From Bacteroidales bacterium (lineage in GTDB: Bacteria > Bacteroidota > Bacteroidia > Bacteroidales > F082): 64,000 nucleotides of DNA. The DNA is taken from the NCBI GenBank assembly GCA_016291135.1, contig JAEFAE010000003.1, positions 20,516 through 84,515 of the forward strand, given 5' to 3'. A program made the position numbers and the translations under genes. Below the pieces are notes generated by a model, which worked only from the letters and a program-made list of their open reading frames with translations, made no database searches and was not told the origin of the DNA. The first letter of the stretch is position 1; the number at the start of each line of letters is the position of its first letter. This document shows, piece after piece, positions 23,988 to 28,425 of the stretch.

Positions 23988-25084
23988 ATGAAATAAGCCT
24001 TTATTTTTCTTTGTTTCATAGCGTTTTCATTGTTTTTGAGAGCGCAAAACGTTAGTTCTGAGCAGTATTTCCTTGATGAGGGATCGTTGCGTATGGATGT
24101 TTTCCAATGTGACAATTCCGAAAGCTCGCATTATGTGTTTGAGCGTTTCGTCATCGAACCTTATTTCGGTGGTTCCAAGGTCAATCTGATAGACCCTTTC
24201 AATTATGGGACCAACCGAATGAGAGTGATTGATGCACAAACCAATACAATCATCTATTCAAGAGGTTACAACACGTTGTTCCGTGAATGGCAAACCACCG
24301 AAGAAGCCATATTGATGGAACGCTGTTATGAAGAATCCGTGAGTGTTCCCTTGCCACGCAACGAGGCCTATATCATTCTCGAAATCAGGAATTTCGACGG
24401 TGTCTTTGAGGAAGTGTTCTCTAAGCTATATGAGCCCAACGAGATGTTTAACACCACCGAGCAGCGTTATGTGTTTCTGGTTCAGGATGTCATGGTCAAC
24501 GGCACGCCTGAAAGCAAGGTCGATATCGTGATTCTGCCCGAAGGTTATACCGCTGATGAGATGCCGCAGTTTCTGCAACATTGCCAGGATTTGGTCGATG
24601 TGTTTGCCCAGGAGGAACCGTTTGCAAGTCACATGGATGACTTCAATTTCCGCGCCGTGCTACGCCTAACACCAACCAGTACAACAATACGGTTGGCGCG
24701 TTTAGGGGTGGGGGGTATTTGTCGCAAGGCATGTATCGTCCCCAGCGAAACTGCATGATGCGCAATTATGCTCCTTTCTGTGCGGTGTGTTACAGGACCA
24801 TTGAAGCCGTGATCGAAGCACATTCCGATCATCCGGTTTCGGTAAGAGCAGAACACCTGATACCAGAATCATCGCTTCGCGTATGTCCTAATCCGGCCAC
24901 CGATTTTGTCGATGTCTTTGTGAATCAAAAAGATGGAATGGCGGAAATCATCGATATGAACGGAAAGGTGGTGATGTCGGTTCAACTCAAAAACGAGGTG
25001 AACAGGATTGTGATTAGCAACCTGCCTAATGGGATGTATGTGCTTCGTGCGAACGGTGAGTCGCGGAAATTTGTAAAACAATAA
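23988..25084 (+). pseudogene. Decayed M64 (IgA-type) metallopeptidase gene with T9SS tail
   Basis: Three lesions are visible. First, ATG AAA TAA: codon 3 is a stop, after which the frame continues as a signal peptide (AFIFLCFIAFSLFLRAQN). Second, the frame gives the M64 N-terminal domain (VPLPRNEAYIILEIRNFDG, VDIVILPEGYTADEM, DDFNFRAV) to about 24660 and then jumps to the extreme C-terminal part of the peptidase (NNTVGAFRGGGYLSQGMYRP, then APFCAVCYRTIE), so the catalytic middle with the zinc-binding HExxH is deleted. Third, the deletion also shifts the frame by two. The 3' part still encodes a T9SS sorting domain (VCPNPATDFVDVFV ... MYVLRANGESRKFVKQ). The intact gene would have been a secreted peptidase. 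Confidence 0.85.
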
Positions 25085-25110: not shown

Positions 25111-26214
25111 CTATTCTTTCGCCCCCAAATACTGCGACGGCGTCTGTCCGAACTTTTTCTTGAATGAACGCAGGAAGGTGGCGTAGGAATTGAAGCCCGC
25201 CATCATGGAGATGTCTTCCAGAGAGTAACGGTTTCCCGTGCCTTTGCTGTCGAGAAGCGATTTGGCTTCCTCCAAGCGGAAGTCATTGATGTAGTTGTAG
25301 AACGTAACATGCTTCTCTTGGTTGATATAGTTGCTTAGGTATTGGCGGTTGGTGCTTAAATGCTGCGCCAATTTTTGCAAGGTCAGCGTGTTGTCTTGAT
25401 AGAAGCGTTTATCGCGGATAATGCCGTCGATATTGTTGTCAACCAACGATTGGTAAAAGGGCACAGAAACACCTTCTTTGCTTTCTGCGTTAGTCTCTTT
25501 TTCATCATCAGGGACGATAAACACCTGTTGTTGGATGATTTTCTGCATGACGAACCACATGACGATGATGGTCAGGAAGCAATAGAGGGTGTCGAAAAGC
25601 AGGTTGGTTTCAGCTGATGATACGGAAAACCAATTTTTTTGCGAAGCGCTCTCGAGAGCCCAGACCAACTGCACAATGAAATACAGGGTGATGAGGATAC
25701 CACACCAGCGTAGGTCGAAATGTTCAAGGTCGCCCACGTTGTCACGCAGCATGGCGGTGTGTTTCTTGATGGAAATCCACAGTAAGACCAACAATGCAAA
25801 AGAAGCTGCCAAGGTGTAAAACTGCACCACATTATAGATAAGATGATTCTGTGTGACGGCGAACAAGACGATGGCCAAAAGATAGGGCACCTCCAAGAGC
25901 AGCAGTTGGCGCGTCTTGAATCGGGAAGGGAACACCAACGAAACGACGAACATCATATAACCGCCTACGATCAGGTAGTCGTACAACAGCAGTAGCGTGT
26001 TGAGGAAGTCTGAGAAGGGTAGGCTTCCGCAGGCGGCAACGACGAAATTGTTCATGAAGCCGAACGAATGGAGTAGCAAGACCGCTGCAAACACACGCTG
26101 GAACTGGTAGTCGCGATGCTTTTTGTACATGAACACGCTGCAGGCTATCAGCGCACATTGGGTGAACCCGGAAACGAAGCAAAGCAACAATATGTGAAAA
26201 AAGTCGCTGTTCAT
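25111..26214 (-). CDS. Membrane-anchored AraC-family transcriptional regulator
   Basis: A 367-aa regulator. Residues 1-230 contain about seven hydrophobic helices (FFHILLLCFVSGFTQCALIACSVF, VGGYMMFVVSLVF, LLFDTLYCFLTIIVMWFV), so it sits in the inner membrane. The C-terminal 110 residues are a double helix-turn-helix AraC domain: LTLQKLAQHLSTNRQYLSNYI and YSLEDISMMAGFNSYATFLRSFKKKFGQTPSQYL. The ATG at 26214 is preferred to the track start; a -7 box at 26220-26227 leaves only 5 nt, suggesting a near-leaderless mRNA. Three matching repeats lie between it and the divergent lipoprotein gene, which is a likely target. The signal sensed is unknown. Confidence 0.88.
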   Translation of the reverse strand: MNSDFFHILLLCFVSGFTQCALIACSVFMYKKHRDYQFQRVFAAVLLLHSFGFMNNFVVAACGSLPFSDFLNTLLLLYDYLIVGGYMMFVVSLVFPSRFKTRQLLLLEVPYLLAIVLFAVTQNHLIYNVVQFYTLAASFALLVLLWISIKKHTAMLRDNVGDLEHFDLRWCGILITLYFIVQLVWALESASQKNWFSVSSAETNLLFDTLYCFLTIIVMWFVMQKIIQQQVFIVPDDEKETNAESKEGVSVPFYQSLVDNNIDGIIRDKRFYQDNTLTLQKLAQHLSTNRQYLSNYINQEKHVTFYNYINDFRLEEAKSLLDSKGTGNRYSLEDISMMAGFNSYATFLRSFKKKFGQTPSQYLGAKE

Positions 26215-26219
26215 ATCGG

Positions 26220-26227
26220 CAAAGGTA
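26220..26227 (-). promoter_or_regulatory. -7 box (TACCTTTG) of the AraC-type regulator
   Basis: The reverse strand reads TACCTTTG, with 5 nt to the ATG at 26214. Confidence 0.5.
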
Positions 26228-26274: not shown

Positions 26275-26342
26275 TTTTACGCATTGCAAAGGGATTTTTT
26301 ACGAAATGAAGAAATCGGGCCTTGGATTTTACGCAATGCAAA
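26275..26342. promoter_or_regulatory. Three direct repeats, candidate AraC-type operator array
   Basis: Repeat 1 TTTTACGCATTGCAAA (26275-26290), repeat 2 TTTTACGAAATGAAGA (26297-26312) and repeat 3 TTTTACGCAATGCAAA (26327-26342) have the same orientation. Repeats 1 and 3 differ at one base. Start-to-start distances are 22 and 30 bp, close to two and three helical turns. The array lies between the divergent regulator gene and the BACON lipoprotein gene. Confidence 0.65.
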
Positions 26343-26384: not shown

Positions 26385-26392
26385 GACCTTTG
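26385..26392 (+). promoter_or_regulatory. Weak -7 box (GACCTTTG) of the BACON lipoprotein gene
   Basis: GACCTTTG differs from TAnnTTTG at the first base and lies 38 nt before the ATG at 26431. A weak box about 42 bp after repeat 3 fits an activator-dependent promoter, but this is inference. Confidence 0.35.
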
Positions 26393-26430
26393 CATCTATA
26401 AGTCATCAATTCTTATAATACTCAATCAAT

Positions 26431-28329: not shown

Positions 28330-28352
28330 AACCAACCTTTTCTTGAAATGTG

Positions 28353-28384
28353 AGGGATTTCCGCAAGGGGATCCCTTTTTTTTT
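28353..28384 (+). terminator. Intrinsic terminator after the BACON lipoprotein
   Basis: The stem AGGGATTTCC-gcaa-GGGGATCCCT (with two G-T pairs) closes with a GCAA tetraloop and runs into nine T. Confidence 0.8.
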
Positions 28385-28417: not shown

Positions 28418-28425
28418 TATTTTTG
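28418..28425 (+). promoter_or_regulatory. -7 box (TATTTTTG) of the fucosidase gene
   Basis: TATTTTTG lies 28 nt before the ATG at 28454 and inside the longer track ORF, so it decides the start. Confidence 0.55.

Follow-up and report, generated by a model that had tools for sequence, protein, structure and literature searches.

Regulators of the AraC/XylS family carry a C-terminal double helix-turn-helix (HTH) domain of about 100 residues, and their operators are direct repeats of half-sites of about 17 bp with a period of about 21 bp. At the Escherichia coli pBAD promoter the two half-sites are araI1 and araI2, the inner one being weaker and lying over the -35 region. AraC shifts to the I1/I2 sites on induction (PMC6018408). 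HTCS regulators, including BT4124, combine a sensor and an HTH_18 domain in one protein and control surface genes (PMC11253607), while the CdhR/GbdR-type site consists of GGTCGC half-sites with a 15-bp spacer, equal to a 21-bp period (PMC5806209). In the literature that we searched, no description was found of the operator of a seven-transmembrane (seven-TM) AraC regulator of Bacteroidota.

The intergenic repeats and the genes around them

A first-pass annotation of a 64,000-nucleotide stretch of DNA from a rumen Bacteroidales bacterium, hereafter the window, had proposed a candidate operator of three helically phased repeats between a membrane AraC-family gene and a BACON/LamG lipoprotein gene. 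Both neighbours are as described, namely a seven-TM protein with an AraC HTH, divergent from a CarboxypepD_reg-BACON-LamG lipoprotein, and re-reading of the sequence returned the three repeats (R1 to R3) with the same letters and coordinates, in the same direction and at 22- and 30-bp steps. The features are collected in Table 1.

Table 1. Features of the divergent regulator–lipoprotein region, in positions of the window
Feature	Position	Strand	Description
Regulator, 367 aa	25111..26214	-	seven predicted TM helices (residues 3-228), variable linker, AraC HTH (272-364)
Regulator -7 box, TACCTTTG	26220..26227	-	TAnnTTTG, five bases from ATG, in 30/30 genus loci; predicted +1 at 26215
Half-site R1, TTTTACGCATTGCAAA	26275..26290	+	predicted -122..-107 of lipoprotein promoter; kept in 30 genus loci
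Half-site R2, TTTTACGAAATGAAGA	26297..26312	+	predicted -100..-85; 22 bp past R1
Half-site R3, TTTTACGCAATGCAAA	26327..26342	+	predicted -70..-55; araI1-like, core-pair member; site also present in relatives outside the genus set
Half-site R4, decayed, TTTGGGCGAGTGAAAA	26348..26363	+	predicted -49..-34, over expected -33 region; araI2-like; recognised only by comparison
Lipoprotein -7 box, GACCTTTG	26385..26392	+	GAnnTTTG in 30/30 genus loci; predicted +1 at 26397, 34-nt leader
Target lipoprotein, 632 aa	26431..28329	+	CarboxypepD_reg, BACON repeats, Laminin_G_3; lipobox-like LGLISC near N-terminus
Terminator-like hairpin with T-run	28352..28377	+	3' of lipoprotein gene

The C-terminus of the regulator contains the double HTH of the AraC/XylS family (Pfam HTH_18, E=6.4e-17; HTH_AraC, E=3.7e-11), and a Foldseek search matched the fold of the protein, modelled by AlphaFold2 with a pLDDT of 79.9, to YesN/AraC DNA-binding domains. 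Only HTH families were found in the protein; no histidine kinase, receiver or periplasmic sensor domain was detected and, having neither kinase nor receiver, the regulator is not a hybrid two-component system. The Foldseek matches of its TM domain to 7TM receptors were weak and non-specific (E about 0.03, TM 0.4-0.5), so that homology to these receptors is not claimed. As to the signal, the gal, GH29 and M64 genes nearby prompt no more than a guess that it is related to carbohydrates or glycoproteins. On the other side of the repeats, the hairpin behind the lipoprotein gene, together with a -7-like box belonging to the next gene, GH29 (TATTTTTG at 28418), suggests that the lipoprotein gene is transcribed alone.

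The genome-wide pattern search proposed in the first-pass annotation was carried out on the genome of the window (an assembly of 2.62 Mb in 60 contigs, 83% complete) and returned, with at most one mismatch, four matches: the three sites and one isolated singlet, which lies at the start of a short gene on another contig (C54:18521). The reversed pattern gave no match. The operator model found nothing comparable in this genome, and no operator-like cluster, beyond the locus; a genome-wide regulon in this genome was rejected, that singlet being the only match besides the locus. As the one-mismatch pattern was derived from the sites themselves, the decisive test is the comparative one, and a weight matrix built without the window locus provided an independent test. 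Here R1 to R3 ranked 1 to 3 of 127,970 window positions (26.8, 26.1 and 18.6 bits, the next position scoring 8.1).

Two other readings of the repeats were discarded. An RNA element was ruled out because they lie between both predicted start sites and Rfam finds nothing. Coding was also discarded as the explanation: R1 is entered only if the regulator frame is extended to a TTG start, and the conserved ATG at 26214 and the box explain the start.

Conservation of the repeats and their arrangement in pairs

Searching the regulator protein against 99 genus genomes yielded 25 genomes with close relatives, in which 30 regulator loci, comprising orthologues and paralogues of 52-67% protein identity, were examined. 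Those relatives that carry a name belong to uncultured Bacteroidales or Bacteroidia, and the labels of many refer to rumen or ruminant samples. The first-pass annotation had asked whether the repeats persist in related genomes that keep both genes: they are present in all 30 loci, where the regulator ATG lies about 60, 82 and 112 bases away. When the loci are aligned, the information content is 1.58-1.71 bits per column in the three repeats and 1.71 bits in the -7 box, against 0.86 bits in the spacers; as the sequences are related, the p value of this comparison (Mann-Whitney p = 7e-11) serves only as a guide. Measured from R1 to the end of the -7 box, 29 of the 30 loci span 119-121 bp; L043, the exception, carries a deletion. 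These data support the interpretation of the repeats as a conserved putative operator of the divergent membrane AraC regulator.

The comparison also revised the architecture. In four loci with other divergent genes (L008, L046, L049 and L051) a clear fourth repeat lies 21-22 bp past the third, indicating an arrangement in two direct-repeat pairs, and a clear R4 is found at -49/-50 in these four as well as in L105, L149, L151 and L152. The corresponding place in the window, and in its closest relatives, is occupied by a TTTGGGCGAGTGAAAA-like sequence that retains TGAAA as its right half and is altered in its left half; in the window it ranks only 1352 of the 127,970 positions in the weight matrix, not significant alone. 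All loci contain 16-bp direct repeats spaced 21-22 bp; in the four-site arrangement the successive steps are 21-22, 30-33 and 20-22 bp, and where the spacing is intact the R1/R2 and R3/R4 pairs are 51-54 bp, or about five helical turns, apart. The three annotated sites are real, but they belong to a set of four half-sites in two pairs, of which the fourth had been overlooked. Likewise, the helical phasing attributed to them fits best between the pairs (52 bp, about five turns), the 22- and 30-bp steps following it only approximately, and the triplet, although conserved within the genus, is not the conserved core, which is instead the promoter-proximal pair.

Specifically, R3 and R4 start at -70/-71 and -49..-51 from the predicted +1. 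A pair at the corresponding core positions (-70..-72 and -49..-50) was found in the more distant loci L105, L107 and L108 (about 57% identity), in L149 and L152, two loci of one genome from another family (regulators 57 and 50% identical), in L150 of another family (55% identical), with two extra sites closer in, and in L151, again of another family, where the regulator is only 31% identical and the site word, ATTTACGAATTGAACA, is still recognisable. In L106, reading of the sequence placed the pair at 19 and 40, equal to -70/-49, with a box GATTTTTG at 77. The upstream pair is absent from most of these more distant loci, and in the other-family loci the divergent gene is unrelated while the repeats are still present. 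From this comparison, R3/R4 is the core of the predicted operator and R1/R2 an extra upstream copy. The core starts, at about -71/-49, coincide with the positions of AraC I1/I2 at E. coli pBAD. Among relatives, the regulator HTH is 68-86% identical, the TM part 49-66% and the linker 17-33%; identity in the recognition-helix regions stays at 85-92% in the other families too, except for L151 (62-69%), where the site has diverged as well. Of 11 other membrane-AraC or AraC-like loci that were searched, two had weak repeats and the rest none that were comparable; a general rule for all membrane-AraC proteins was accordingly rejected.

The gene order most often encountered begins with the gal genes and the regulator; past the operator come up to two small inserted genes, then the BACON/LamG lipoprotein, the M64 peptidase and GH29. 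In L085-L110 the first gene past the operator varies among close relatives, being a GGGG-lipoprotein, a short CarboxypepD lipoprotein or a member of the MEQNKNQEAW family, as if the slot before the BACON/LamG gene were repeatedly receiving insertions. The targets are mostly exported or surface proteins, with exceptions that include the predicted cytoplasmic or membrane-anchored first gene of the MEQNKNQEAW family. The paralogous regulators L094, L101, L103, L104 and L105-L108 face, with the same operator type, giant secreted proteins (1.7-3.2 kaa) containing beta-helix, Kelch, dockerin, Fib_succ_major and collagen-like domains. In addition, the M64 (IgA-peptidase-like) gene of the window (23988-25081, + strand) lies between galK and the regulator gene, lacks residues ~226-369 and changes frame at the junction; relatives have an intact 509-aa copy downstream of the lipoprotein gene. 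The window copy may be either a relocated pseudogene or an assembly artefact.

Promoter elements and a proposed mode of activation

The promoters were read with the -7 box placed at -12..-5 (PMC9723704). Relative to the sigma-ABfr consensus TAnnTTTG, the lipoprotein box GACCTTTG is one base off, as the first-pass annotation had noticed, and has the form GAnnTTTG in all 30 genus loci; the regulator box follows the consensus. Lying five bases from the ATG, the latter predicts a start one base before the ATG, and hence a leaderless mRNA. Leaderless messages are a minority class, 3.7% of the 5' UTRs of B. thetaiotaomicron being shorter than 10 nt (PMC7366714). The presence of a GA box at the target and a TA box at the regulator within one intergenic region supports a target that would depend on an activator, and a regulator promoter that would be constitutive or separately controlled. 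A weak -7 box is not obligatory, since a TAnnTTTG box accompanies the same pair of sites in most of the more distant loci. With the predicted +1, R4 at -49..-34 overlaps the -33 region, in a class II position that is the same in distant lineages.

Judged from sequence and comparison, the explanation that we consider highly probable is that the repeats are operator half-sites through which a one-component seven-TM AraC regulator activates the divergent lipoprotein gene. R3 and the weak R4, as a direct repeat of 21-22 bp, would accommodate a pair of AraC-type DNA-binding domains, at about -71 and -49; the inner one, at R4, would overlap the -33 region of a sigma-ABfr promoter whose -7 box is substandard. 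Triggering of the membrane sensor would lead to occupation of R4, recruitment of RNA polymerase and switching on of the lipoprotein gene (class II activation). R1/R2, five helical turns upstream, would probably hold a second dimer that raises local concentration or cooperativity, and the regulator itself would be made from its own leaderless promoter with a consensus box. What the sequences show directly are the sites with their spacing and conservation, their occurrence together with the regulator, the conserved HTH and the promoter boxes; we infer binding, a dimer for each pair, activation, the membrane signal and autoregulation. Against this explanation stand the R4 of the window, which would not be recognisable by itself, the +1 positions, which are predicted, the consensus -7 box in most of the more distant loci and the outcome of the search of 11 other membrane-AraC or AraC-like loci.

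That the regulator binds the same sites but represses the lipoprotein gene until the signal arrives, or like AraC alternates between repressing and activating its target, appears unlikely. A protein bound at R4, over the expected -33 region, could indeed block the polymerase, and two separated pairs could permit multi-site or short-loop repression; however, a target -7 box that is off-consensus in every one of the 30 genus loci points to a promoter needing help rather than blocking, the core pair has the geometry of an AraC activation site, and no site lies over the -7 box.

Association of the motif with the regulator

A sequence model of the whole operator, run on the 99 genus genomes, recovers all regulator loci at E <= 2.2e-9. 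Elsewhere only G076:C27, with no regulator gene beside it, matches strongly (2e-20); the next match, a partial one, scores 4e-7. The strict pair pattern gives one match per regulator copy in nearly all carriers and none with the reversed controls, the exceptions being G076:C27, G011:C16 and a few carriers with sites differing from the pattern. In the genomes G012 and G054, which have a BACON/LamG lipoprotein 60-63% identical and no close regulator, no repeats were found upstream of the lipoprotein gene. These results support the view that presence of the putative operator tracks the regulator, not the lipoprotein. Weak model matches (G087:C15, G018:C80, G082:C43, G084:C15, G075:C13 and G011:C16) look like promoter words of other genes and were set aside.

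The orphan operator of G076 (L145:5911-6029, G076:C27:77910-78028) precedes an unlinked 634-aa gene and is complete, with three strong sites, R4 in weak form and a GAATTTTG box, the regulator being encoded elsewhere in this genome. In G012, which lacks the regulator, a 79%-identical relative of the 634-aa gene is preceded by an ordinary box of the TA type and by no operator. This contrast is the best evidence, at the level of sequence, for a predicted action in trans. It has the appearance of a natural promoter swap.

The same distribution bears on the idea that the repeats are sites of another transcription factor, merely located in this intergenic region. The genome does encode further AraC-type HTH proteins, and binding by the regulator is a prediction; still, strong sites occur only beside the regulator or, once, in a genome having it, a lipoprotein without the regulator has no sites, and the repeats persist in other families next to an unrelated divergent gene, all of which makes such a factor very improbable. 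A chance or low-complexity likeness of A+T-rich intergenic DNA, for which single TTTTACGCA-like words elsewhere, such as those over unrelated gene starts in L004, L075 and L146, could be cited, is hardly credible given the conservation at fixed spacing in 30 loci and other families and the top three weight-matrix ranks in the window. Those isolated words, of the form TTTTACGCA(C/G)TGCAAAGATA (L004:1501, L075:1501 and L146:4716), consist of a -7 box followed by a close ATG on the other strand and are thus probably leaderless starts rather than operator sites.

Comparison with known regulatory systems

Taken as the operator of the seven-TM regulator, the repeats show what comparison alone can yield: a half-site, its exact distance from the promoter and, beyond the locus itself, one predicted member of the regulon. 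The motif offers a handle on the regulons of uncultured rumen bacteria. The -71/-49 placement, on a promoter used by a non-sigma-70 polymerase, suggests that AraC class II geometry holds in Bacteroidota too. More tentatively, we imagine the fusion of a 7TM receptor to an AraC domain as a membrane-tethered activator that would need neither kinase nor second messenger and would dock onto two pairs five turns apart, its 120-bp cassette being movable and able to recruit unlinked genes, as in G076; this broader picture is possible rather than probable.

Among Bacteroidota proteins, the regulator resembles Bacteroides HTCS such as BT4124 in joining a membrane sensor and an AraC/HTH_18 domain in one polypeptide, and differs from them in having no detected histidine kinase, receiver or periplasmic sensor domain. 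With the Pseudomonas CdhR/GbdR-type activators it shares the divergent orientation of regulator and target and a direct repeat in the intergenic region; those proteins, however, are soluble and use a single pair, and the site of CdhR, which lies upstream of the promoter, has been assigned to class I. The likeness to E. coli AraC at pBAD extends to the type of DNA-binding domain, a spacing of about 21 bp between half-sites in direct repeat, the divergent regulator gene and an inner, weaker half-site at about -50..-35 that overlaps the -35 region (here the -33 region). In contrast to AraC, whose sensor is a soluble arabinose-binding domain, the sensor here consists of seven TM helices, the promoter is of the sigma-ABfr type (TAnnTTTG) rather than sigma-70, the half-site sequence is unrelated and, in place of the distant araO2, a tandem upstream pair lies 52 bp away; looping is not indicated.
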